DNA from: Maribacter ulvicola
GTDB taxonomy: Bacteria > Bacteroidota > Bacteroidia > Flavobacteriales > Flavobacteriaceae
Direction: 5' to 3'
Assembly: GCF_900155985.1 (NCBI RefSeq)
Contig: NZ_FTMA01000003.1
Span: 248,001 to 312,000, forward strand
DNA length: 64,000 nt
Part shown: positions 6,453-19,754 of the stretch, one piece after another
Layout: each line of letters starts with the position of its first letter
Numbering within the stretch: the stretch's first letter is position 1
Position numbers and translations under genes: made by a program
The notes under the pieces: generated by a model
Databases searched by the model: none
Seen by the model: the letters and a program-made list of their open reading frames with translations, nothing else
What the model was told of the DNA's origin: nothing

Positions 6453-7265
6453 TTATTCCCTACCGGCATCTATAGCCAACTTAACAGAACCATGTTCTTT
6501 CAATAACGTTTCAGCCGCTGCATAATCAATATTTAGCCCTTCCATAATATACCTAGTACCGCGATCAACCAACTTATCGTTGCTCAATTGCATGTTCACC
6601 ATCTTATTACCTTTAACTCTACCTATTTTAATCATTAATGCAGTAGATATCATGTTCAAGACCAATTTTTGAGAAGTACCACTTTTCATTCTTGTACTAC
6701 CGGTTAGAAACTCCGGTCCTACATTTATTTCAATAGGTATATCAGCTATTCTTGCAATGGGTGCACCAGGGTTATTGGTAATTGCTGCTGTTAAAATTCC
6801 GTTCTCCTTGGCATCTTCTAACCCACCAATGACATATGGAGTGCTGCCTGAGGCTGCAATACCCACTACTACATCAGTAGTATTAATATCATGTTTCTTT
6901 AAATCTAACCACGCCTGCTTGGTGGCATCTTCCGCATTTTCAACTGCTTTTCTAATGGCGGTATCTCCACCAGCAATTAAACCAACAACACGTTCATGTG
7001 GCATACCAAATGTTGGCGGAATTTCTGAAGCATCTAAAATTCCTAATCTACCGCTAGTTCCTGCACCAATGTAAAAAAGTCTTCCTCCTTTATTGAACCT
7101 TTCAGTTAAAGCATCTACAAGCTTCGTAACCTGCGGAATGGTCTTCTCTACCGCAGCGGCAACCTTTCTATCCTCTTCGTTTATTTTCTGGAGAATAGTT
7201 TGGGTATCCATCAACTCTAAATTATCATGATGGGACGGTGTCTCTGTAACTCTTTTGTAATCCAT
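6453..7265 (-). CDS. murQ: N-acetylmuramic acid 6-phosphate etherase MurQ
   Basis: A cytoplasmic SIS-domain lyase of 270 residues that cleaves the lactyl ether of MurNAc-6-phosphate to give GlcNAc-6-phosphate and D-lactate. Diagnostic stretches are LFYIGAGTSGRLG, DASEIPPTFG with the catalytic glutamate, IAGGDTAIRKAVENAEDA, and TGSTRMKSGTSQKLVLN. The length is slightly below the E. coli enzyme, which has a longer C-terminus. It lies 4 bp downstream of the DeoR-type regulator on the same strand, so the two are almost surely co-transcribed. With anmK and nagZ nearby it completes the MurNAc branch of peptidoglycan recycling. Confidence 0.97.
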   Translation of the reverse strand: MDYKRVTETPSHHDNLELMDTQTILQKINEEDRKVAAAVEKTIPQVTKLVDALTERFNKGGRLFYIGAGTSGRLGILDASEIPPTFGMPHERVVGLIAGGDTAIRKAVENAEDATKQAWLDLKKHDINTTDVVVGIAASGSTPYVIGGLEDAKENGILTAAITNNPGAPIARIADIPIEINVGPEFLTGSTRMKSGTSQKLVLNMISTALMIKIGRVKGNKMVNMQLSNDKLVDRGTRYIMEGLNIDYAAAETLLKEHGSVKLAIDAGRE

Positions 7266-7269
7266 TTAA

Positions 7270-8019
7270 TTATAAAATTTTTATATCGTGATTTCTAAAA
7301 GCTTTTAATAATAAGTTATCTGGGGTCAACTCGGTAATCATGGTATTTATCGAATTTATATCACAGGTTTTATACCTATGCTGAGAATTCAATTTTTCCG
7401 ATATGGATAAAAGCACTGTTTTCTTCGATGCTTTTATAACTGCTTTCTTTATTTGAACAATATCCCAATCAAACTCTGTTAAACCAAAAGTAGCATCCAC
7501 ATAACCGGTACCAATAAAACTATAATCAAATCGTATCTCAGATATATGATGAATGGCATTTGCACCAATAGCAATCTGTGCTTCCTTAGATATTTGTCCT
7601 CCAATAGAAATTACATTGATGTTTGCTTTATGAGAAAGCTCCATGGCAACCGGTAAACTAATGGTAAAACAAGTAAGATTTAAATTTTCAGGAATAATTC
7701 TTGCCAATTCCATACAGGTTGTTCCTCCATCTAAAAAAATAACGGCACCATCACGTAACATACCTACCGCTTTTGTGGCAATGGCAGCTTTATCATCTAA
7801 CTTATAAATATTTGTATTTCTGGCACTGTTGGTCATATACCCCATAGAGATCGCACCACCATGCACTTTACGCAGTTTATTTTCTGCATCTAATTCTTTT
7901 ACATCTCTTCTAATAGTATCTATAGACACATCTAAAGCCTCAGCTATATCAGTTATAAGAATTCTATTATGCAGATCAACCTCACTTAATATGGTTTGTT
8001 GACGTTCTTCTTTTAGCAT
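7270..8019 (-). CDS. DeoR/GlpR-family transcriptional regulator
   Basis: A 249-residue regulator with an N-terminal DeoR helix-turn-helix at about residues 5-58 (ILITDIAEALDVSIDTIRRD, then LRKVHGGA) and a C-terminal sugar-phosphate sensor domain containing FLDGGTT, typical of DeoR effector pockets. It is first in a two-gene unit with murQ and divergent from nagB. It therefore probably represses both directions and responds to an amino-sugar phosphate such as GlcNAc-6P or GlcN-6P. The effector is inferred from position; the domain assignment is read from sequence. Confidence 0.92.
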   Translation of the reverse strand: MLKEERQQTILSEVDLHNRILITDIAEALDVSIDTIRRDVKELDAENKLRKVHGGAISMGYMTNSARNTNIYKLDDKAAIATKAVGMLRDGAVIFLDGGTTCMELARIIPENLNLTCFTISLPVAMELSHKANINVISIGGQISKEAQIAIGANAIHHISEIRFDYSFIGTGYVDATFGLTEFDWDIVQIKKAVIKASKKTVLLSISEKLNSQHRYKTCDINSINTMITELTPDNLLLKAFRNHDIKIL

Positions 8020-8140: not shown

Positions 8141-8179
8141 AATTTATTGCACAAAACTGCAAATAATCAAAATAACGCA

Positions 8180-8224: not shown

Positions 8225-10153
8225 ATGAAAAACACCGTAAAGGATTCCAAAATGGATATTACCCACAAACCAATTGGTCAGTTCGAAGAAACACGTTTCG
8301 AAAAAATACACAACGTAATTTTCGAAGATTCTAACGAAGCTTCTATTCAAGTTGCTCATGAAATTGCAGCTTTAATAAAAAAGAGACAAGGCCAGAAAAG
8401 AAATTGCGTCTTAGGTTTAGCCACTGGTTCTTCACCTATACGCGTTTATGAAGAATTGGTTCGTATGCATAAAGAAGAAGGGTTAAGCTTTAAAAATGTG
8501 ATCACCTTCAACCTAGATGAATATTTGCCAATGGAACCAAATAACATACAGAGTTATTTCTATTTCATGCATGAGCATTTATTTAATCATGTAGATATTC
8601 CTGAAAAGAATATACATATACCTGATGGTACAGTAAGTAATGAGGAAACTACGGCGTATTGTCTAAGTTACGATCGTAAAATAAAAGAAAATGGCGGCTT
8701 AGATTTTCAACTTTTAGGAATAGGAAGAACAGGGCACATTGGATTCAATGAACCTGGCTCACATTTTAACTCTGGCACTAGAGTAATAACCTTGGACCAT
8801 ATTACTCGCGCAGATGCCGCACCTGCCTTTCTAGGAATAGCCAATGTACCCAGAAAAGCAATTACAATGGGTATTTCCACGGTAAGAAAAGCTAAAAGAA
8901 TTGTTTTACTAGGTTGGGGTGAAAATAAGGCAGGAATTATAAAGAAGACTATTGAAGGAGATATTTCATCTCACGTGCCAGCAACCTACTTACAAGAACA
9001 TGATAACTGTACTTTTGTTCTAGATACCGGTGCCGGTAGTGAATTAACAAAAAACAAAACACCATGGTTGGTTGATTCTTGTGAATGGACAGAAGAATTG
9101 AAGGCAAAGGCTATGGTTTGGCTTTGTGAAACTACAGGAAAAACCATATTAAGCTTAACCGATAAGGATTATAATGATAACGGTATGGCAGATCTTTTAG
9201 CTTTAGCTGACTCCTATGATCTGAATATTGAAATGTTCAATAAATTACAACATACCATTACCGGATGGCCAGGTGGTAAACCAGATGCTGACGATACCCA
9301 CAGACCAGAGCGTGCTACACCTGCTAAAAAACGAGTGATCATTTTTAGTCCACACCCAGATGATGATGTAATTTCTATGGGCGGAACTTTTGATAGATTA
9401 GTAGAACAAGGTCATGAAGTTCACATTGTATACCAAACCTCTGGAAACATCGCAGTTTCAGATACCGATGCCCGTAAATATGCAGAAATCGCCATGCATA
9501 TTAATCCATCTGAGGAAGCAGAAAACATCATAAAATCTATTTCTGAAAAGAATGAAACACGTATAGATTCACTTGACGTAAGAAATTTAAAAGGTAAAAT
9601 AAGAAGAGGAGAGTCTTATGCAGCTACACGTTATATGGGACTGCAAGATGAAAACGTCCACTTTTTAGACTTGCCATTTTACGAAACGGGTAAGATTAAA
9701 AAGAAAAACCTATCTGATGAGGATATTGATATAGTAATAGACATTATCAAAGAAATTAAACCCCATCAAATATATGCCGCTGGTGATTTGGCTGATCCAC
9801 ATGGTACACATAAAGTATGCTTAGATGCCGTTTTTGCTGCATGTGAAAAACTGAAATCTGAAGACTTTATGGAAGATTGCTGGGTTTGGCTATATAGAGG
9901 TGCTTGGCACGAGTGGGATATTAACGAAATTGAAATGGCAGTACCTATGAGTCCGGGACAGGTATTGAAGAAACGTTTTGCAATTTTCTGCCACCAATCT
10001 CAAAAAGATGGCGTCATGTTCCAAGGCGATGACTCTAGGGAATTTTGGATGCGCGCAGAAGAAAGAAACCGAGATACCGCTAATAAATACAAAGCAATGG
10101 GCTTATCTTCATACGCAGCCATGGAAGCCTTTGTAAGACATAAATTCAACTAA
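8225..10153 (+). CDS. nagB: Glucosamine-6-phosphate deaminase fused to a LmbE/PIG-L deacetylase-like domain
   Basis: A two-domain cytoplasmic protein of 642 residues from the chosen ATG; an ATG at 8252, behind a weak AAAGGA, is the alternative. Residues 25-290 are a GlcN-6-phosphate deaminase: GLATGSSPIRVYEEL, FNLDEY with the catalytic Asp at about 98, and GHIGFNEPGS with the catalytic His at about 171. The usual catalytic-relay Asp two residues before that His is Thr here (GRTGH). Residues 365-560 are a LmbE/PIG-L domain with both zinc motifs intact: SPHPDDD at about 375-381 and PHGTH at about 525-529. The deaminase half yields fructose-6-phosphate and ammonia. The second domain is unassigned in function and could deacetylate GlcNAc-6-phosphate. 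Its transcript ends in a strong hairpin. Confidence 0.92.
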   Translation: MKNTVKDSKMDITHKPIGQFEETRFEKIHNVIFEDSNEASIQVAHEIAALIKKRQGQKRNCVLGLATGSSPIRVYEELVRMHKEEGLSFKNVITFNLDEYLPMEPNNIQSYFYFMHEHLFNHVDIPEKNIHIPDGTVSNEETTAYCLSYDRKIKENGGLDFQLLGIGRTGHIGFNEPGSHFNSGTRVITLDHITRADAAPAFLGIANVPRKAITMGISTVRKAKRIVLLGWGENKAGIIKKTIEGDISSHVPATYLQEHDNCTFVLDTGAGSELTKNKTPWLVDSCEWTEELKAKAMVWLCETTGKTILSLTDKDYNDNGMADLLALADSYDLNIEMFNKLQHTITGWPGGKPDADDTHRPERATPAKKRVIIFSPHPDDDVISMGGTFDRLVEQGHEVHIVYQTSGNIAVSDTDARKYAEIAMHINPSEEAENIIKSISEKNETRIDSLDVRNLKGKIRRGESYAATRYMGLQDENVHFLDLPFYETGKIKKKNLSDEDIDIVIDIIKEIKPHQIYAAGDLADPHGTHKVCLDAVFAACEKLKSEDFMEDCWVWLYRGAWHEWDINEIEMAVPMSPGQVLKKRFAIFCHQSQKDGVMFQGDDSREFWMRAEERNRDTANKYKAMGLSSYAAMEAFVRHKFN

Positions 10154-10168
10154 TACCTAAATTGAATT

Positions 10169-10203
10169 AAAAGGCCTATTTTTAGTTTTAAAATGGGCCT
10201 TTT
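10169..10203 (+). terminator. Strong hairpin terminator after nagB, close to the next start codon
   Basis: AAAAGGCCTATTTT (10169-10182) pairs with AAAATGGGCCTTTT (10190-10203), 14 bp with one G-T pair and a 7-nt loop, followed by a T-rich run. It ends 7 nt before the next gene's ATG. Confidence 0.85.
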
Positions 10204-10210
10204 TATTTTT

Positions 10211-11728
10211 ATGAATAAACAACTAGCACTCCTCGTATTACTACTACTTCTTAATTCTTGCGGAATTTTCAAATCCTACGAAAAACATCCAAAGAGAGAA
10301 TTTAGAGGAGTTTGGATTGCTACGGTAGTCAATATAGATTGGCCTAAAAATGGTAATGATACAGCAGAGAAACAAAAAGCCGACTACCTTAAAATTTTAG
10401 ATTTTTACGAGAAAGAAAACTACAATGCCGTTATCGTTCAGGTTCGCGCAGCAGGCGATGCTTTTTATGAGTCTGACTATGCGCCTTATTCCAGGTTTCT
10501 AACAGGTGAAGAAGGTACAGCCCCAAAATGGAATACAAATGTTCTTGAGTGGATGATCAACGAAGCTCATATAAGAGGCATGGAATTTCATGCATGGTTA
10601 AATCCGTACAGAGCTACTTTTGATGAGAATTTTGAGGTTCTCGCTGAAACACATGATTACTGTACACATCCAGAATGGGTAGTACATTATGGCAAAAAGA
10701 ACTACTACAACCCGGGATTACCAGAAGTTCGCAACCACTTTTCTAACATTATTGCAGAGCTGGTTTCTAACTATGATATAGATGCCATACATTTTGACGA
10801 TTATTTTTATCCCTACAAAATTACCGGCGAAGTTTTTAATGATTCACTAGCATTTGAAACCTATGCTCAAAAAGACCAATCTATTGATGATTGGCGCCGT
10901 AGTAATATTGATTCGTTGGTAAAGCAATCTCACGAAACTATCAAATCAATTAAACCATGGGTACAGTTTGGTATTAGTCCGTTCGGAGTTTGGAAAAATA
11001 ATAGTACCGACCCTAAAGGTTCAGATACCAAAGCAGGACAAACCACTTATGAAGATCTATATGCAGACCCATTGCTTTGGATGAAAAAAGGTTGGATTGA
11101 TTATTTAGCCCCACAAGTTTATTGGAGCATGGAACTACCGGTAGCATCACACAGAAAAATTGTAGATTGGTGGTCAAAGAACAATTATAATACCAACCTT
11201 TATGTAGGTAACGGACCATATAAGATCAGAAACAACAGCGATAAAGCATGGGATGATATTAAAGAAATACCCAAACAGTTAAAACTAGCCCGTAAAACCT
11301 CTCAAATACAGGGAAACATTATGTTCAGCGCCAAGTCTCTAATGAATAATAATGATGATGTTGTTGATTATATTCACAAGAAATATTACCAGAAACCAGC
11401 ATTGAGTCCTGTTTCTTGGCTATCAAATAATCATACTTCAAGAACCCCTAAATTACTATCAACCTACAAAACAGAATCAGAGCTTGTTCTTAAATTCAAC
11501 GATTTAAAAGAGCTAAGGTTTGCCCTATTCTATGCTTCCGGTATACGCGTAAAAAAATCTTATGATATTAGGAAATTACAAGCCAAAACTTATGTAGACC
11601 ATACCACTAAAACGGTACGTATTCCTCTAAACCAATTGAGAAAAAAATATAATGCCATTAGTTTTATAGACGTCTACGGTAAAGAAACTACGCCAATAAT
11701 TTTTAATCTAAAACAAGTGAATAAATAA
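10211..11728 (+). CDS. GHL10-family (DigH/YngK-like) glycoside hydrolase lipoprotein
   Basis: A lipoprotein of 505 residues: MNKQLALLVLLLLLNSC puts the lipobox Cys at 17. The ATG at 10193 is rejected because it lies inside the terminator arm and would precede the signal peptide. The GHL10 (PF02638, formerly DUF187) catalytic domain starts at REFRGVWIATVVNIDWP and includes QVRAAGDAFYESDYAPYS, FHAWLNPYRA, DAIHFDDYFYPY and GISPFGVWKN. A further C-terminal beta-type region follows residue 400. E. coli DigH, of this family, cleaves peptide-stripped peptidoglycan strands. Its place ahead of ampG, nagZ and anmK suggests it makes muropeptides or trims glycans outside the cytoplasm. Confidence 0.85.
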   Translation: MNKQLALLVLLLLLNSCGIFKSYEKHPKREFRGVWIATVVNIDWPKNGNDTAEKQKADYLKILDFYEKENYNAVIVQVRAAGDAFYESDYAPYSRFLTGEEGTAPKWNTNVLEWMINEAHIRGMEFHAWLNPYRATFDENFEVLAETHDYCTHPEWVVHYGKKNYYNPGLPEVRNHFSNIIAELVSNYDIDAIHFDDYFYPYKITGEVFNDSLAFETYAQKDQSIDDWRRSNIDSLVKQSHETIKSIKPWVQFGISPFGVWKNNSTDPKGSDTKAGQTTYEDLYADPLLWMKKGWIDYLAPQVYWSMELPVASHRKIVDWWSKNNYNTNLYVGNGPYKIRNNSDKAWDDIKEIPKQLKLARKTSQIQGNIMFSAKSLMNNNDDVVDYIHKKYYQKPALSPVSWLSNNHTSRTPKLLSTYKTESELVLKFNDLKELRFALFYASGIRVKKSYDIRKLQAKTYVDHTTKTVRIPLNQLRKKYNAISFIDVYGKETTPIIFNLKQVNK

Positions 11729-11729
11729 T

Positions 11730-13004
11730 ATGGTACAAAAAGACAAAGGAGCTTGGGCATGGGTACCCGTGTTGTATTTCACACAAGGTTTACCCTACGT
11801 ATTGGTAGTTACGGTTTCTGTAATCATGTACAAGCAATTAGGGGTCAGCAATGAAGATATTGGTCTATACACTAGTCTCTTATATCTGCCCTGGGTTTTA
11901 AAACCATTATGGAGTCCCTTCGTAGATTTAAAAAGTACCAAACGTAACTGGTTTTTAAGCATGCAGCTTTTAATTGCCGTTGCCTTATTAGGCGTTGGAC
12001 TTACCCTACCAACCAACATGTTCTTCATTTCCTCCTTAGCCTGTTTTTGGATGGCAGCTTTTGCCTCGGCCACTAACGATATAGCTTCAGATGGGTATTA
12101 TATGTTAGGGTTGACAGAAAAAAAACAATCCTTTTTCGTAGGAATGCGAAGTACCTTTTACCGACTTGCAATGGTAACAGGTGAAGGATTAATAGTTGTT
12201 CTAGCAGGGTTCTTAGAAAACAAATATGGCGACAATACCAAAGCATGGAGCGTTACCATGTCTGCAGCCGCTTTTTTAATGCTGATTATGACCGTTACCA
12301 ACTTTTTCGTAACTCCAAAATATGAAGCCGAAAACACAGAAGACAAAGAAAAACCTGCGGGATTCTTAGAAGTGTTTTCTTCATTCTTTAAAAAACCGGG
12401 TATTGGCATTGCCCTAGCATTTATACTCACCTACCGCTTAGGGGAATCTCAATTGGTAAAAATGGCTTCTCCGTTTTTATTGGACACTCCTGATAAGGGC
12501 GGATTAGGCTACTCCACAGAACAACTAGGAACCATTTTCGGCACTGTAGGAGTTATTTTTCTTTCTGTAGGCGGAATATTGGGAGGAATTTTAATTTCTA
12601 GGGATGGATTAAAAAAATGGATGCTGCCAATGGTGCTCTCCCTAAACCTACCCAACATTTTATATGCTGTATTGGCAATAACGAACACCACGAACATATA
12701 TGCAGTTACCGCCACCGTAATCTTTGAAAAATTTGGATACGGATTCGGTTTTGCAGCCTTTTTAATGTACCTCATATACATTGCCGACGGAAAATCTAAA
12801 ACATCACATTACGCAATTGCCACAGGATTTATGGCATTAGGAATGATGCTACCAGGTATGGTAAGTGGCTATATGCAACAATGGCTAGGCTATGATGGCT
12901 TTTTTGTTTGGGTAGTAATCGCTGCCCTGCCAGCACTATTATTATTAAAATTCATTTCTTACCCCGTAGATTTCGGTAAAAAAACAACAGCTCCCAATGA
13001 ATAA
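11730..13004 (+). CDS. ampG: AmpG-like muropeptide MFS permease
   Basis: A 424-residue polytopic MFS protein of the AmpG/SLC33 type, which imports GlcNAc-anhydroMurNAc (peptides) across the inner membrane. AmpG-like features are the N-terminal FTQGLPYVLVV, SLLYLPWVLKPLWSPFVD after the first helices, and ATNDIASDGYYM in the fourth segment. About 12 membrane segments are visible. Its ATG is 1 nt after the preceding stop, and its 3' end overlaps nagZ by 8 nt, so it is translationally coupled on both sides. The gene neighbourhood supports muropeptide import strongly. Confidence 0.9.
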   Translation: MVQKDKGAWAWVPVLYFTQGLPYVLVVTVSVIMYKQLGVSNEDIGLYTSLLYLPWVLKPLWSPFVDLKSTKRNWFLSMQLLIAVALLGVGLTLPTNMFFISSLACFWMAAFASATNDIASDGYYMLGLTEKKQSFFVGMRSTFYRLAMVTGEGLIVVLAGFLENKYGDNTKAWSVTMSAAAFLMLIMTVTNFFVTPKYEAENTEDKEKPAGFLEVFSSFFKKPGIGIALAFILTYRLGESQLVKMASPFLLDTPDKGGLGYSTEQLGTIFGTVGVIFLSVGGILGGILISRDGLKKWMLPMVLSLNLPNILYAVLAITNTTNIYAVTATVIFEKFGYGFGFAAFLMYLIYIADGKSKTSHYAIATGFMALGMMLPGMVSGYMQQWLGYDGFFVWVVIAALPALLLLKFISYPVDFGKKTTAPNE

Positions 13005-14553
13005 AATAATACCTACAAAAGAAGCATTAGAAAAGCTTTCCTTAACCGAGAAAGTTGGACAATTATTTATGCCCGCAGCGTTTATAAATGATACCGAAGA
13101 AGAAATTCAGCAATTAGAAAAACTGATTTCCGAACACCACGTAGGCGGACTCTGCTTTTTTCATTCCAGAGCAAGTGCTGCTACCAATTTTGAAGGCAAA
13201 AAGAAAATAGTTGTTAATGAGAGTAGTTTTGGCACTTTAAAAAATCTCATCAGCAGATATCAAAAAGCAGCAACCTATCCCCTAATAATTTCTATTGATG
13301 CAGAATGGGGATTAGCTATGCGGATTGAAAACACACCACAATACCCCTATGCAATTACCTTAGGCGCAAATACAGAAAATAAAGATTTAACATTTGAAGT
13401 TGGCAAACAGATTGCAAAAGATTGTAAAGCAGCCGGTGTACATTGGAATCTTTCTCCTGTAGTAGATGTAAACGTTAATCCTAACAACCCGGTGATAGGC
13501 TATCGTTCTTTTGGTGATGACAAGCATAATGTAGTTGCCATGGCAACTGCTTTTGTAAAAGGTACACAAAGTGAAAATGTACTAACGAGCCTAAAACATT
13601 TTCCGGGTCACGGAGATACGGCAACAGATTCGCACTTAGGTTTGCCGGTCATTGATAAATCTAAAAAAGAGCTTCTCGAAAATGAATTATTCCCTTTTCA
13701 AAAATTAATTGACCAAGGTGTAGATTCTGTAATGGTGGGGCATTTATCCGTACCATCATTAACCACAGACCCAAACCTGCCATCAAGCATAAACAAAGAT
13801 ATAATTACCGGAGTGTTACGAAATGAAATGGGCTTTGATGGCGTTGTAATTTCAGATGCTTTAAATATGCACGCCGTATCTAAAAACTACCCTATTAAAG
13901 GAGAGCTTGAATGGCTTGCATTTAATGCTGGTAATGATGTATTATGTTTTGCTGAACATATTGAAGAAGGTATTCAATTTATTTTAAAAAATGCATCAGA
14001 AGCACAAATTGAAAAAAGCATTGAACGTATCTGGAAGTTAAAGGAAAAGGCAATTATTGATAAAGTTTCACTAACAGAATTAACCGATCCAAGTCCTTTA
14101 AACAGAAAAATAGCCGAACAATCACTCACCTTATACCATGGTTCAGATGCTGAAATTGTAAAATTTAAAGAAACAGATTTCTGCACATTGACTATCAAAA
14201 GATTTGGAACAGACCAAACGGAAAAAGATATTTTAGATAACATCGTAGAGATGGAAAAAGAAGTTAAAAACGAAACTGAGATTCTTTTGCTTTTAACGCC
14301 ACCACAAATAAAACCAACAAATAAATTTGGATTCTATGATGAGGAAATTAAATTCATAAATGAGCTGATTGCAACTAAAAATGTGGTGCTATATCACTTT
14401 GGAAACCCGTATGCATTGAAGTTTTTCAGTACTGAAAACACAACCGCAACGGTAATTGCCTATCAGGATTTTAAAGCGTTTCAAGATGTGGCAACAGAAC
14501 ATTATTTAGGCAACCTAGAAGCAAAAGGAAAATTGCCGGTATCACTGAACTAA
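12997..14553 (+). CDS. nagZ: Beta-N-acetylhexosaminidase NagZ-like (GH3)
   Basis: A GH3 enzyme of 518 residues with no signal peptide, so cytoplasmic, releasing GlcNAc from GlcNAc-anhydroMurNAc imported by AmpG. The NagZ signature KHFPGHGDTATDSH lies at residues 200-213 and carries the Asp/His dyad special to NagZ enzymes. The nucleophile is the Asp of VISDALNM at about 287. At 518 residues it exceeds the roughly 340 of proteobacterial NagZ: an extra C-terminal domain of about 170 residues follows the barrel, as in some two-domain Gram-positive and Bacteroidota versions. It overlaps ampG by 8 nt and is followed by anmK after 25 nt. Confidence 0.93.
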   Translation: MNKIIPTKEALEKLSLTEKVGQLFMPAAFINDTEEEIQQLEKLISEHHVGGLCFFHSRASAATNFEGKKKIVVNESSFGTLKNLISRYQKAATYPLIISIDAEWGLAMRIENTPQYPYAITLGANTENKDLTFEVGKQIAKDCKAAGVHWNLSPVVDVNVNPNNPVIGYRSFGDDKHNVVAMATAFVKGTQSENVLTSLKHFPGHGDTATDSHLGLPVIDKSKKELLENELFPFQKLIDQGVDSVMVGHLSVPSLTTDPNLPSSINKDIITGVLRNEMGFDGVVISDALNMHAVSKNYPIKGELEWLAFNAGNDVLCFAEHIEEGIQFILKNASEAQIEKSIERIWKLKEKAIIDKVSLTELTDPSPLNRKIAEQSLTLYHGSDAEIVKFKETDFCTLTIKRFGTDQTEKDILDNIVEMEKEVKNETEILLLLTPPQIKPTNKFGFYDEEIKFINELIATKNVVLYHFGNPYALKFFSTENTTATVIAYQDFKAFQDVATEHYLGNLEAKGKLPVSLN

Positions 14554-14578: not shown

Positions 14579-15655
14579 ATGAAAATATATAAAATTATCG
14601 GTCTTATGTCGGGCACATCATTAGATGGCCTTGATTTAGCTTATTGCCACATTTGGGAGAAAAATGGGGGGTGGCTGTTTGACATTAAAGAAACTAAAAG
14701 TGTTAAGTATGCATCTGAAATGCTGAATACTCTAAAAAATACTATCAGTTTATCCCCAGAAAAACTTATTGAGTTACATAATACTTATGGTACGTGGCTT
14801 GGTGAACAAACTGCTGTATTTATTAACGAACATACATTAGAAGTAGATTATATAGCCAGTCACGGGCACACCACACATCACCGCCCAGAAATGGGACTTA
14901 CTTTTCAAGTGGGGTCTGGGCAACATATAGCAAATGCAACCGGTATTAAAGTCATTGCAGACTTTAGAACAAATGACTTGGCACTTGGCGGACAAGGCGC
15001 CCCACTAGTACCTATAGGTGACAGATTGTTTTTTAGTGAATATGACTTTTGCTTGAATTTAGGCGGCATCAGCAATATCTCCTTTGAGGTTAAGAACAAA
15101 CGGATAGCCTATGACATTGGTTTAGCAAATATGATTTTAAACTATATCACCAGAAAGGTAGATTTAGAATATGATGAAGATGGCAAATTTGCACGTGCCG
15201 GGAGTATTAACACAGCAATGTTTAACCAATTAAACAATCTTGAATATTATACATTACCACATCCAAAATCCGTTGGTTATGAGTGGTTTTTGGCAAAAGT
15301 AGTCCCTATTATTGAAGATACAGATGATAGCATTGAAAATCTATTGCATACCAGTGTTCATCATATTTGTGAAAAAATTACTCAGCAGATTCAGTTGAAT
15401 TTCATAAATAAAAATCAGCAATTATTAATTACGGGTGGTGGTGCATTAAACTCTTTCTTAATAGAAACTTTAGAACAAAAACTGGGTTCTACAACCAAAG
15501 TTGTTGTACCCGCAAAAATAATTATCGAATTTAAAGAAGCTTTAATATTTGCATTAATGGGCGTACTAAGAGTTAAACAATTAACAAATGTACTTTCATC
15601 TGTTACCGGTGCAAAAAAAGACTCCACTAGCGGAGTATTGTTCATACCCAATTAA
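14579..15655 (+). CDS. anmK: Anhydro-N-acetylmuramic acid kinase AnmK
   Basis: A cytoplasmic kinase of 358 residues that opens the 1,6-anhydro ring of anhydroMurNAc and phosphorylates it to MurNAc-6-phosphate, the MurQ substrate. Motifs: IIGLMSGTSLDGLDLA at the N-terminus (phosphate loop), ASHGHTTHHRPE, FRTNDLALGGQGAPLVPIGD, CLNLGGISNIS and LLITGGGALNSFL. Length matches the family. It is last in the run that follows the GHL10 gene. No clear U-tract hairpin follows it; instead two overlapping inverted repeats lie before the acetate operon. Confidence 0.97.
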   Translation: MKIYKIIGLMSGTSLDGLDLAYCHIWEKNGGWLFDIKETKSVKYASEMLNTLKNTISLSPEKLIELHNTYGTWLGEQTAVFINEHTLEVDYIASHGHTTHHRPEMGLTFQVGSGQHIANATGIKVIADFRTNDLALGGQGAPLVPIGDRLFFSEYDFCLNLGGISNISFEVKNKRIAYDIGLANMILNYITRKVDLEYDEDGKFARAGSINTAMFNQLNNLEYYTLPHPKSVGYEWFLAKVVPIIEDTDDSIENLLHTSVHHICEKITQQIQLNFINKNQQLLITGGGALNSFLIETLEQKLGSTTKVVVPAKIIIEFKEALIFALMGVLRVKQLTNVLSSVTGAKKDSTSGVLFIPN

Positions 15656-16081: not shown

Positions 16082-17776
16082 ATGAGTGTTCAAACCTGGA
16101 CGTATATTTTAGTAGGGCTCACCTTTGCTCTATATATCGGAATTGCCATCTGGTCTAGAGCCGGATCCACAAAAGACTTTTATGTTGCCGGTGGCGGAGT
16201 TTCTCCACTTGCCAACGGAATGGCAACCGCAGCAGATTGGATGTCTGCCGCATCATTCATATCTATGGCAGGGATAATTTCCTTTGCCGGTTATGACGGC
16301 TCCGTTTATTTAATGGGATGGACAGGCGGTTATGTTTTACTGGCATTACTATTAGCTCCGTACCTAAGAAAATTCGGGAAATTTACCGTACCCGATTTTA
16401 TAGGTGATAGATATTATTCTAAAACAGCACGTATTGTTGCGGTAATTTGTGCTTTGATCGTTTCATTTACCTATGTTGCTGGACAAATGCGAGGGGTTGG
16501 CGTGGTATTCTCAAGATTCCTTCAAGTAGATATTAATACCGGTGTTATCATTGGAATGATCATCGTGCTTTTCTATGCTGTTCTAGGCGGAATGAAAGGC
16601 ATTACCTATACGCAAGTAGCGCAGTATTGTGTGCTCATTTTTGCGTTTATGGTTCCTGCAATTTTCATATCGATACAAATGACCGGAAACCCAATTCCAC
16701 AATTAGGAATGGGATCCACTTTAAACGATGGTTCTGGCACTTATCTGTTAGATAAACTAGACGGACTATCAACAGAACTAGGCTTCAATGAATATACTGA
16801 CGGTTCTAAATCCGTGACCGATATTTTTGCCATCACCTTGGCTTTAATGGTGGGTACTGCAGGGTTACCTCATGTAATCGTTCGGTTTTTTACCGTTAAA
16901 AAAGTAAAGGACGCTCGTAAATCTGCCGGATTGGCATTGTTGCTCATCGCTATTCTGTACACTACGGCACCAGCTGTTTCTGTATTCGCAAAAACCAATC
17001 TTATCCATACAGTTAGTAACGAAGAATATTCAAGTATGCCCGTTTGGTTTAAAAACTGGGAAGAAACCGGATTACTTTTGTTCGATGATAAAAATAATGA
17101 CGGAAAAATACAATACGTAGCAGATACATCAAAAAATGAATTGACCATAGATAACGATATCATGGTACTGGCGAATCCTGAAATTGCCAATTTACCTGCT
17201 TGGGTAATTGCATTGGTTGCAGCTGGCGGATTAGCCGCAGCATTATCTACTGCTGCTGGTTTGCTATTGGTAATTTCCGCATCGGTTTCGCATGATTTGG
17301 TGAAGAAGGTTTTTAAACCCAATATTTCTGACAAAGCAGAGTTATGGGTAGCAAGAGGTGCTGCAACCGTAGCTGTAATTATTGCAGGTTATTTTGGCAT
17401 CAATCCGCCCGGCTTCGTAGCCGCTGTAGTAGCGCTGGCATTTGGCTTGGCCGCGGCCTCTTTCTTCCCTGCAATTGTGCTGGGCATATTTTACAAGAAA
17501 ATGAATAAAGAAGGAGCCATTAGCGGAATGGTAGTCGGTATCGTTCTTATGCTATTCTATATGACTAAATTTAAATTTGGCTGGTTTGGTGGTGGAACTC
17601 CTGCAGATTGGTGGTTTGGCATTTCGCCGGAAGGCTTTGGTAGTATCGCTATGATTGCTAACTTTATTGTTGCAATTGGTGTACTTCAATTCACCTCTGC
17701 ACCACCTAAGGATGTTCAAGAAATTGTAGAAAATATTAGAATACCTAGCAGCGCAGGCGAAGCCACGGGACACTAA
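16082..17776 (+). CDS. Sodium:solute symporter family protein (ActP/VC_2705-like, probable acetate)
   Basis: A 564-residue inner-membrane transporter of the SSS family with about 13 membrane segments. SSS features include FYVAGGGVSPLANGMATAAD near the N-terminus, DWMSAASFISMAG, YVAGQMRGVG and VGTAGLPHVIVRFFTV, and a charged insert at about 320-370 between helices. Its close placement with DUF4212 and acs points to a short-chain carboxylate, most likely acetate, as substrate. That is inference from context, since SSS substrates cannot be read from sequence alone. Confidence 0.88.
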   Translation: MSVQTWTYILVGLTFALYIGIAIWSRAGSTKDFYVAGGGVSPLANGMATAADWMSAASFISMAGIISFAGYDGSVYLMGWTGGYVLLALLLAPYLRKFGKFTVPDFIGDRYYSKTARIVAVICALIVSFTYVAGQMRGVGVVFSRFLQVDINTGVIIGMIIVLFYAVLGGMKGITYTQVAQYCVLIFAFMVPAIFISIQMTGNPIPQLGMGSTLNDGSGTYLLDKLDGLSTELGFNEYTDGSKSVTDIFAITLALMVGTAGLPHVIVRFFTVKKVKDARKSAGLALLLIAILYTTAPAVSVFAKTNLIHTVSNEEYSSMPVWFKNWEETGLLLFDDKNNDGKIQYVADTSKNELTIDNDIMVLANPEIANLPAWVIALVAAGGLAAALSTAAGLLLVISASVSHDLVKKVFKPNISDKAELWVARGAATVAVIIAGYFGINPPGFVAAVVALAFGLAAASFFPAIVLGIFYKKMNKEGAISGMVVGIVLMLFYMTKFKFGWFGGGTPADWWFGISPEGFGSIAMIANFIVAIGVLQFTSAPPKDVQEIVENIRIPSSAGEATGH

Positions 17777-17846: not shown

Positions 17847-19754
17847 ATGAGTAATTACCACATTAAACATCTTGAGGAATATTATCAAGTTTACCGAAAA
17901 TCGGTACGTAATCCAGAAGCGTTCTGGGAAGAAATTGCCGAAGAACATTTTGTTTGGCGTAAGCGCTGGGACAATGTATTAAGTTGGGATTTTAAAAAGC
18001 CCGAGATAAAATGGTTCGAGGGTGCTAAACTCAACATTACAGAAAACTGTTTAGATCGTCATTTACCTACTAGGGGCGATAAAACTGCGATTATTTTTGA
18101 GCCGAACAACCCAGATGAAGAAGCGCAACATATCACCTACAGACAACTACATGAACGAGTTTGTCGCATGGCAAATGTATTATTAGATCATGGTGTAAAA
18201 AAAGGTGATCGTGTTTGTATTTATTTACCGATGATTCCTGAATTGTCAGTAGCTCTTTTAGCGTGTGCTCGTATTGGCGCTATACATTCAGTAGTATTTG
18301 CGGGATTTTCGTCTCATGCACTAGGCACACGGATCAATGATTCTGACTGTAAAGTGGTGTTAACATCAGATGGTTCTTTTCGAGGTAATAAATCTATAGA
18401 CTTAAAAGGCATTGTAGACAAGGCTTTGGAAGGATGCCCCGGAGTAGCAAATGTTTTGGTTGTAAAACGTACCGGATCAGATATTCATATGGAGCCAGTT
18501 AGAGATAAATGGCTACAACCCTTACTAGACGAGGCATATGCTGATTGCGTTGCCGAGGTTATGGATGCTGAAGACCCCTTGTTCATCCTGTACACCTCTG
18601 GATCAACAGGCACACCAAAAGGAATGGTACATACTACCGCAGGGTATATGGTATATACCGCATATACTTTTAAAAATGTTTTTCAATATAAAGAAAATGA
18701 CGTGTATTGGTGTACAGCAGATATAGGCTGGATTACAGGGCACTCATATATTGTTTACGGACCGCTAGCAAATGGGGCTACTACTTTAATGTTTGAAGGT
18801 GTACCCTCATATCCAGATTTTGGTCGTTTTTGGGAGGTAGTACAAAAGCACAAAGTCAATCAGTTCTATACGGCACCTACTGCCATTAGAGCATTGGCTA
18901 AAGAAAATTTAGAATACGTTGAAAAATACGATTTATCTAGTCTTAGGGTTTTAGGCTCTGTGGGCGAACCTATAAATGAAGAAGCATGGCACTGGTATAA
19001 TAACAACGTAGGCAAAAAGAACAGTCCATTAGTGGACACTTGGTGGCAAACCGAAACAGGTGGTATTATGATTGCTCCTATACCGTATGTTACACCTACA
19101 ACACCAACTTATGCTACCCTACCGTTTATTGGTATTCAACCAGCCTTAATGGACGAGAATGCTAAAGAAATAAAAGGTAACCAGGTAGAAGGTAGATTAT
19201 GTATCAAATTTCCATGGCCATCAATTGCACGAACTATTTGGGGAAACCATGATCGTTATAGGGATACCTATTTTTCAGCATATGAAGATATGTACTTTAC
19301 AGGTGATGGCGCATTGAGAGATGCTGTTGGGTATTACAGAATTACAGGTCGTGTAGATGATGTCATCATTGTATCTGGTCATAATTTAGGTACAGCCCCC
19401 ATTGAAGATGCTATTAACGAACACCCTGCAGTTGCAGAATCTGCTATTGTAGGTTTCCCTCATGATGTCAAAGGAAATGCGCTGTACGGATATGTTATTC
19501 TAAAAGAAACAGGAGAAAGCAGAGATCGCGATAACCTAAGAAAGGAAATTAACCAACAGATTACCGAACATGTTGGCCCGATCGCAAAACTAGAAAAAAT
19601 ACAGTTTGTATCTGGACTACCCAAAACACGTAGCGGTAAAATTATGCGTAGAATTTTACGTAAAATTGCTAGCAATGATACCAGTAATTTAGGAGATACA
19701 AGTACCTTACTGAATCCTGAAATTGTTCAAGAAATCATGGATAATTCATTGTAA
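17847..19754 (+). CDS. acs: Acetyl-CoA synthetase (AMP-forming)
   Basis: A cytoplasmic ANL-superfamily ligase of 635 residues that activates acetate to acetyl-CoA through acetyl-AMP. Motifs: the P-loop YTSGSTGTPKGMVHT, WWQTETGG, the C-terminal-domain hinge ITGRVDDVI, SGHNLGTAPIEDAINEHP, and LPKTRSGKIMRRILRK with the acetylatable catalytic lysine. Length fits Acs. It follows the symporter by 70 nt in an uptake-and-activation unit. The adjacency to an amino-sugar catabolic island, which releases acetate on deacetylation, may be functional. Confidence 0.97.
   Translation: MSNYHIKHLEEYYQVYRKSVRNPEAFWEEIAEEHFVWRKRWDNVLSWDFKKPEIKWFEGAKLNITENCLDRHLPTRGDKTAIIFEPNNPDEEAQHITYRQLHERVCRMANVLLDHGVKKGDRVCIYLPMIPELSVALLACARIGAIHSVVFAGFSSHALGTRINDSDCKVVLTSDGSFRGNKSIDLKGIVDKALEGCPGVANVLVVKRTGSDIHMEPVRDKWLQPLLDEAYADCVAEVMDAEDPLFILYTSGSTGTPKGMVHTTAGYMVYTAYTFKNVFQYKENDVYWCTADIGWITGHSYIVYGPLANGATTLMFEGVPSYPDFGRFWEVVQKHKVNQFYTAPTAIRALAKENLEYVEKYDLSSLRVLGSVGEPINEEAWHWYNNNVGKKNSPLVDTWWQTETGGIMIAPIPYVTPTTPTYATLPFIGIQPALMDENAKEIKGNQVEGRLCIKFPWPSIARTIWGNHDRYRDTYFSAYEDMYFTGDGALRDAVGYYRITGRVDDVIIVSGHNLGTAPIEDAINEHPAVAESAIVGFPHDVKGNALYGYVILKETGESRDRDNLRKEINQQITEHVGPIAKLEKIQFVSGLPKTRSGKIMRRILRKIASNDTSNLGDTSTLLNPEIVQEIMDNSL

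Follow-up and report, generated by a model that had tools for sequence, protein, structure and literature searches.

A NagB-LmbE fusion protein of Bacteroidota with a probable, separately selected deacetylase half

The gene studied here lies in a 64,000-nucleotide stretch of Maribacter ulvicola DNA (contig NZ_FTMA01000003.1, positions 248,001 to 312,000; hereafter the window) and encodes a fusion of NagB, the glucosamine-6-phosphate (GlcN-6-P) deaminase, with a LmbE/PIG-L domain. The architecture is already known, since NCBIfam NF002557 / PRK02122 ("glucosamine-6-phosphate deaminase-like protein") has it from end to end under a name that is silent on the LmbE half; what is new is the evidence on this second half. 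The conservation of its residues and its persistence beside decayed NagB halves indicate that the LmbE half is very probably an active deacetylase that is under selection of its own and works together with NagB. Its main substrate, as the best single guess and with a probability of roughly two in three, would be N-acetylglucosamine 6-phosphate (GlcNAc-6-P). Removal of the acetyl group from GlcNAc-6-P is the committed step both in the use of GlcNAc and in the recycling of amino sugars from the cell wall; the enzyme normally held responsible is NagA, a member of the amidohydrolase superfamily. If the proposal is true, a LmbE deacetylase fills the gap in those Bacteroidota that carry MurQ and the fusion and lack NagA (75 of 178 murQ-positive genomes) and extends to the whole protein an annotation that so far covers one half of it, and a two-domain enzyme with one or the other half switched off by evolution becomes a direct guide to the residues worth testing.

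Architecture of the fusion and its solved relatives

The joining of the two domains at 8225-10153, as given in the initial annotation, was borne out by PF01182 and PF02585 and by the NF002557 profile, which matched residues 5-641 with 1059.5 bits (cut-off 384) and thereby excluded a chance match. The ATG at 8225 suits as the start because this alignment begins at residue 5, which is model position 6; an in-frame TTG at 8147 is a possible earlier start. The NagB half matched the NagB equivalog TIGR00502 with 251.6 bits against a cut-off of 236.9, and it holds all of the Asp, His and Glu that are catalytic in NagB (D98, H171 and E176). We take Asp98 to be the catalytic Asp, equivalent to Asp72 of E. 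coli, and within GRTGH we take His171 to be the active His and Thr169 to occupy the relay position. The LmbE half belongs to the LmbE/PIG-L metal-dependent deacetylases by its PF02585 score, by H377-D379-D380 together with H529 and by its fold match to 2ixd, and both zinc motifs described earlier, SPHPDDD (residues 375-381) and DPHGTH (524-529), are present and intact. An AlphaFold2 model made with a 59-row family alignment reached a predicted local distance difference test score (pLDDT) of 90.4 and a predicted template modelling score (pTM) of 0.84.

By analogy, with roles after excerpts of PMC4101496, His377 and Asp380 would be metal ligands and Asp379 the general base. In the alignment to 2ixd, His529 would be a further metal ligand and His526 the counterpart of BshB His110 and MshB His144. 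The region past the PIG-L domain, strongly conserved at three places (Table 1), is a candidate for the part that recognizes the substrate.

Among solved structures, NagB of B. subtilis (2bkv; 4.5e-55, Foldseek TMt 0.97), which has no LmbE half, was the best match to the N-terminal half. For the LmbE half, Foldseek gave as nearest solved relatives the diacetylchitobiose deacetylases (8bgn and 3wl4; 3we7 by similarity) and BC1534/BshB (2ixd), which share with it the LmbE fold and an HPDD/HADD-type metal motif, while the sequence matches to them cover mainly the first 50 positions. These relatives are free-standing, and the second motif is HPDH in 2ixd and HGTH in the fusion. According to their structure titles and to excerpts of PMC4101496, the diacetylchitobiose deacetylases and BshB/BC1534 work on GlcNAc compounds; the same excerpts describe LmbE enzymes of varied substrates. 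The fusion stayed below the equivalogs BshB1 (37.2 against 182.5 bits), BshB2 (26.1 against 195.25) and MshB (19.4 against 224.35). NagA (TIGR00221) carries out the same reaction as is proposed here, but it is absent from the 11 NCBIfam families that the fusion matched at E <= 0.001. Searches of an open-access library, in which most subscription papers are absent, listed no paper dealing with what the fused LmbE half does. NagA and NagB are reported together in excerpts of PMC4324048, and the excerpts of PMC5583593 (12 of 17 places) name no LmbE protein that replaces NagA.

Conservation and separate decay of the two halves

We read 130 distinct fusion copies longer than 550 residues from 99 genomes of a phylum sample of 247; outside the 130 stand G119:C86, two contig-end pieces of G246 and the cut copies of G099. 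Apparent fusions lacking LmbE in G099 (matches C6 and C35) were rejected on the strength of C6, which runs out at the contig end. The metal and base residues of the LmbE half were intact in 127 of the 130 copies (H377, D380 and D381 in 130, H529 in 129, H526 in 128 and D379 in 127), and in the NagB half D98 was kept in 125 and H171 in 128. A second set consisted of 80 named loci. In these loci plus the window, H377, D380 and H529 were found in 81 of 81 sequences, D379 in 80 and H526 in 79, the exceptions being D379G (L192) and H526N (L234 and L235). In an alignment of 70 sequences, 69 positions of the LmbE half versus 46 of the NagB half were conserved at 98% or more; R460, which aligns with the Arg53 region of BshB, was conserved in at least 98% of them and was invariant in a set of 59 sequences. 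The mean pairwise identity in the 70 sequences was 0.59 for the NagB half, 0.58 for the LmbE half and 0.49 for the linker.

The initial annotation had held that an Asp is usual before the active His and that the Thr in GRTGH might tune the chemistry. An Asp does stand at the Thr169 position in the aligned NagB of Vibrio, Borrelia and Pasteurella, but the E. coli-type relay Asp is absent from the fusion and is an Asn in 2bkv, and is thus no general requirement for NagB. The fusions have nearly all Thr, Asn or Ser there (T in 78, N in 25, S in 25 and V in 2 of the 130 copies), so that the Thr is ordinary for the family and the idea of a special tuning falls.

In five of the 130 copies (G230, G238, G167, G215 and G207) the NagB half has lost D98, H171 or both, and these NagB-dead copies all keep an intact LmbE half. 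The five genomes all have a stand-alone NagB over the cut-off, and none has nagA over the cut-off. The same state was followed in 149 genomes of the order of G230, probably the Bacteroidales to judge from shared substitutions, of which 36 carry the fusion over the cut-off and were all read. Here a stand-alone NagB means at least 214 bits to NF002557 and a length of about 240-320 residues, G417 (147 bits, residues intact) is counted as having none, and nagA status refers to G230 and G238. Beside a stand-alone NagB, 19 of 22 fusions were NagB-dead; the exceptions were G426 and G309, of one family, and G306, in which the dead half is LmbE (H377R, D379A and H529R). When no stand-alone NagB was present, only one of 14 fusions was NagB-dead (G389, with a genome of 1.2 Mb). 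This gives a raw Fisher p of 3e-6, relatedness being ignored.

The LmbE residues were intact in 35 of these 36 fusions, including all 20 NagB-dead copies. When the two samples are joined (G230 and G238 are shared), there are 23 distinct NagB-dead genomes; the LmbE half is intact in 23 of 23 and a stand-alone NagB is present in 22, and the D, E, H and E are all retained in those stand-alone proteins that were read. The converse state, with the LmbE half dead and the NagB half not, was found in four copies, and no copy with both halves dead was found in the phylum, named-locus or order-of-G230 readings. In the phylum sample the NagB half of the five NagB-dead copies also diverged faster than the LmbE half would predict (ranks 1, 2, 5, 9 and 21 of 130), and the three D379A copies stood at the opposite end of this comparison (ranks 123-125). 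Of the 22 genomes of the order that hold both genes, nine have the stand-alone NagB 11-499 bp from the fusion; a stand-alone NagB also adjoins the NagB-dead fusion in records of Phocaeicola massiliensis and Prevotella sp. oral taxon 299. The fusion of Bacteroides finegoldii is NagB-dead as well. These results support the view that the LmbE half is under a constraint of its own and outlasts the deaminase domain in genomes that have a separate NagB.

The LmbE half might instead lack catalysis and serve the deaminase as a structural element or as a regulator that senses a metal or ligand, and the persistence of copies with lost LmbE residues (three D379A, one H377R/D379A/H529R and the D379G of L192) speaks for this. 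Near invariance of the metal ligands and base across the family and retention of LmbE in 23 of 23 NagB-dead genomes, which would be unexpected for a mere regulator of the deaminase, make it the least probable of the alternatives weighed here. H526N was considered as a dead state and left doubtful, the copies of G146 and G214 having no asymmetric divergence (ranks 68 and 78 of 130). PIG-L-type proteins whose starts resemble signal peptides by eye adjoin fusion paralogues (L160:6087-6977, L161:5960-6853 and L152:2993-3826). Such stand-alone genes were rejected as replacements for the D379A copies (L160 and L161) because of their leader-like starts and because a gene similar in its first residues lies beside the intact copy of L152.

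Co-occurrence with nagA and murQ and the substrate of the LmbE half

A search of the M. ulvicola genome, which is 99.96% complete, gave no nagA over the cut-off (the top TIGR00221 score was 28.2 bits against 225.65), and the earlier statement that nagA is missing from the recycling genes holds for the cluster genes scanned in the window. In the phylum sample, where nagA and murQ were counted by hand from tables at E < 1e-40, 100 of the 247 genomes have the fusion, 42 have nagA (34 over the cut-off and 8 below) and 24 have both. Stand-alone NagB was listed in this sample down to about 252 bits, which makes the list a lower bound. Among the genomes so listed, none of the 17 that carry the fusion has nagA, versus 14 of the 22 that lack it (raw p 2.5e-5); with G065 and G219 added, the counts are 0 of 18 versus 14 of 23 (raw p 2.9e-5). 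In the genus of G267 (Capnocytophaga catalasegens), 16 of 20 genomes have the fusion, with both halves intact in 16 of 16, and nagA over the cut-off is found in 0 of 20. Excerpts of PMC2533406 report that growth of a C. canimorsus sialidase mutant on macrophages was restored by GlcNAc or N-acetylgalactosamine (GalNAc) and not by glucose; no surveyed genome is assigned to C. canimorsus.

G230 and G238 each have a single PIG-L protein, the NagB-dead fusion, with no nagA over the cut-off and with two and one Amidohydro_1 matches, respectively (E <= 1e-10). The fused LmbE half would be the only evident deacetylase candidate there, provided that the NagB of these genomes is fed from GlcNAc-6-P.

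The 178 murQ-positive genomes comprise 99 with the fusion (75 of these without nagA), 18 with nagA only and 61 with neither. The presence of MurQ alone is no proof that a deacetylase is needed, as the 61 genomes show, and other fates of GlcNAc-6-P must exist. They also favour the alternative that only the deaminase half matters here, the LmbE half being accessory and GlcNAc-6-P passing through GlcNAc 1-phosphate (GlcNAc-1-P) to UDP-GlcNAc without deacetylation. The strong constraint on the LmbE half across the family argues against this alternative, which we regard as highly improbable.

Several results weigh against a fusion that deacetylates GlcNAc-6-P in place of NagA. The two genes occur together in 24 of the 100 fusion genomes of the phylum sample, and a nagA-like gene is present in 25 of the 34 named fusion genomes (23 over the cut-off), a set picked by hand from the 80 loci and no random sample, including Flavobacterium johnsoniae CI04; the 61 murQ-positive genomes with neither gene belong here too. 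Of the copies from nagA-positive genomes 36 of 38 have an intact LmbE core, as do 91 of 92 from nagA-negative genomes, and since the core is equally intact in the former, its retention is independent of nagA and the fusion is no simple stand-in for a missing nagA. Records of Bacteroides finegoldii, which seem to be one assembly since their two accessions are consecutive, have an annotated nagA beside the NagB-dead, LmbE-intact fusion, because of which the LmbE half may have another substrate in that species. Two genomes without nagA have altered LmbE halves: G146 has H526N, and in G108 one copy has D379A while a second is intact. The M. ulvicola genome itself holds eight Amidohydro_1 matches (E <= 1e-10) and, besides the fusion, two more PIG-L proteins (frames of 239 and 851 residues). 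NF002557 and TIGR00502 each have one more, weak match in this genome below those listed, so that it may hold a second NagB of lower score.

Relatedness is a further point of this kind. On a tree of 132 genomes (one copy per genome, linker plus LmbE half, LG+G4, with the uncorrected list of stand-alone NagB), the NagB decay amounts to four changes, with one to four informative independent pairs. These pairs are all in the expected direction, with none contrary, and their number does not suffice for significance (sign test, median p 0.25); the raw table of NagB death and stand-alone NagB, which ignores relatedness, gave p 5e-15 (1e-14 corrected). The literature on F. johnsoniae also counts here. 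Its chitin locus ChiUL contains a gene called nagB, and strain CI04 has fusions of the NF002557 family (L181 and L200) as well as nagA; excerpts of PMC5127042 assign NagA by prediction to another gene, Fjoh_3974, and report that the ChiUL NagB could not be expressed.

The chief rival is therefore that the LmbE half deacetylates another N-acetylamino-sugar phosphate or related compound (MurNAc-6-P, GalNAc-6-P, GlcNAc-1-P or a glycan fragment) and that NagA or other routes handle GlcNAc-6-P. Retention of the LmbE half regardless of nagA, the coexistence of fusion and nagA in many genomes, those B. finegoldii records included, and the varied substrates of LmbE enzymes in PMC4101496, as excerpted, all favour it. 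Three points speak against it: the tie to NagB, by fusion and by gene position, given that NagB acts on GlcN-6-P; the lack of any other candidate deacetylase in G230 and G238; and the fact that, in phylum-sample genomes with a listed stand-alone NagB, fusion and nagA never occur together (17 with the fusion, 14 with nagA and 8 with neither). We consider this rival unlikely and less probable than GlcNAc-6-P. The proposal of the initial annotation that one protein takes GlcNAc-6-P through both steps keeps the support of its chief prediction, which held (no nagA over the cut-off in this genome), of the LmbE constraint and of the 0/17 versus 14/22 comparison, and loses the idea of a simple substitute for nagA; the co-occurrence check that it had suggested comes out in favour among genomes with a listed stand-alone NagB and against it in the 24/100 and 25/34 counts. 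The general claim of a replacement of nagA by the fusion agrees with many genomes and is contradicted by many others.

From the computed architecture, conservation, separate decay and gene context we infer the following scheme of catalysis, substrate, step order, regulation and acetate re-use. The C-terminal LmbE half, a metal-dependent enzyme (His377, Asp380 and His529 for the metal, Asp379 as the base) in which His526 and Arg460 would by analogy bind the substrate, would strip the acetyl group from an N-acetylamino-sugar phosphate, most probably GlcNAc-6-P supplied by MurQ and by a GlcNAc kinase. The N-terminal NagB half would next convert GlcN-6-P to fructose 6-phosphate and ammonia, so that in the M. 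ulvicola genome, with no nagA over the cut-off, the fusion would carry out both reactions that recycle the amino sugars of peptidoglycan, possibly controlled by the divergent DeoR-type regulator. Deamination may in several lineages have passed to a separate NagB, with decay of the fused NagB half, so that a LmbE deacetylase joined to a dead NagB remains. The broader claim stands at about even odds: that many Bacteroidota (fusion in 100 of 247 genomes) have a second GlcNAc-6-P deacetylase unrelated to NagA, LmbE fused to NagB, which replaces NagA in many genomes, and that in one order the fused NagB is a pseudoenzyme carrying an active deacetylase beside a working separate NagB.

Gene neighbourhood

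Table 1. Features of the fusion gene and of its neighbours in the window
Feature	Position	Strand	Remarks
MurQ, N-acetylmuramic acid 6-phosphate (MurNAc-6-P) etherase (yields GlcNAc-6-P)	6453..7265	-	TIGR00274 311 bits, cut-off 302
DeoR-type regulator, divergent from the fusion	7270..8019	-	Profile scans
NagB-LmbE fusion, coding sequence	8225..10153	+	642 residues, no internal stops; NF002557 subfamily
NagB half (glucosamine-6-phosphate deaminase, PF01182)	8327..9007	+	Residues 35-261; Pfam 4e-22
NLDEY with Asp98	8510..8524	+	NagB half
GRTGH with Thr169 and His171	8723..8737	+	Residues 167-171, NagB half
Inter-domain linker	9053..9328	+	Residues 277-368
LmbE/PIG-L deacetylase half (PF02585)	9341..9841	+	Residues 373-539; 3.3e-20; 73.3 bits, cut-off 28.2
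SPHPDDD	9347..9367	+	Residues 375-381; HXDD motif, LmbE half
DPHGTH	9794..9811	+	Residues 524-529
C-terminal region past the Pfam domain	9842..10150	+	Strongly conserved around W555-E563, H590-D595 and R605-R610
GHL10 glycoside-hydrolase-like protein	10193..11728	+	Pfam
AmpG-like muropeptide permease	11730..13004	+	203 bits, under the NCBIfam cut-off of 350
GH3, NagZ-like	12997..14553	+	150 bits, under the NCBIfam cut-off of 207
AnmK, anhydro-MurNAc kinase	14579..15655	+	NF007144 499.6 bits, cut-off 436
VC_2705-family sodium/solute symporter	16082..17776	+	NCBIfam
AcsA, acetate-CoA ligase	17847..19754	+	NCBIfam

The GHL10 protein of the recycling cluster had no NCBIfam match at E <= 0.001. AcsA, about 8 kb downstream of the fusion in the window, could recover acetate released by the fusion. 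An AcsA homologue lies directly 3' of the fusion in a relative (L084:6955-8862), which fits such a re-use of the released acetate.

We compared the neighbourhoods of relatives in 121 stretches, the window among them. MurQ and the DeoR-type regulator adjoin the fusion in four relatives of the same family (L059, L085, L112 and L146), AnmK or AmpG is close to it in other relatives, and GH3 also occurs near the fusion among the relatives. Pfam families were counted for 91 of the 158 co-directional neighbours. The commonest were GH20 (6) and MFS (5), followed by PIG-L, HGSNAT, APH and short-chain dehydrogenases (3 each) and AnmK and ROK (2 each); the HGSNAT neighbours are presumably NagX-like, a label of our own. 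A NagA homologue lies inside the fusion-bearing stretch in L096 and L100.

A CN_hydrolase gene (Pfam) lies directly upstream of NagB-dead fusions at L054:8774-9685 and L110:3045-3851, and a gene annotated as amidohydrolase, grouped with these, has the same position in B. finegoldii (L281:2022-2801). Genes for NagA, NagB or the fusion also stand on records labelled as plasmids (OY726012, NZ_OY725913, NZ_OY725914 and NC_022111), which may be pieces of chromosomes.

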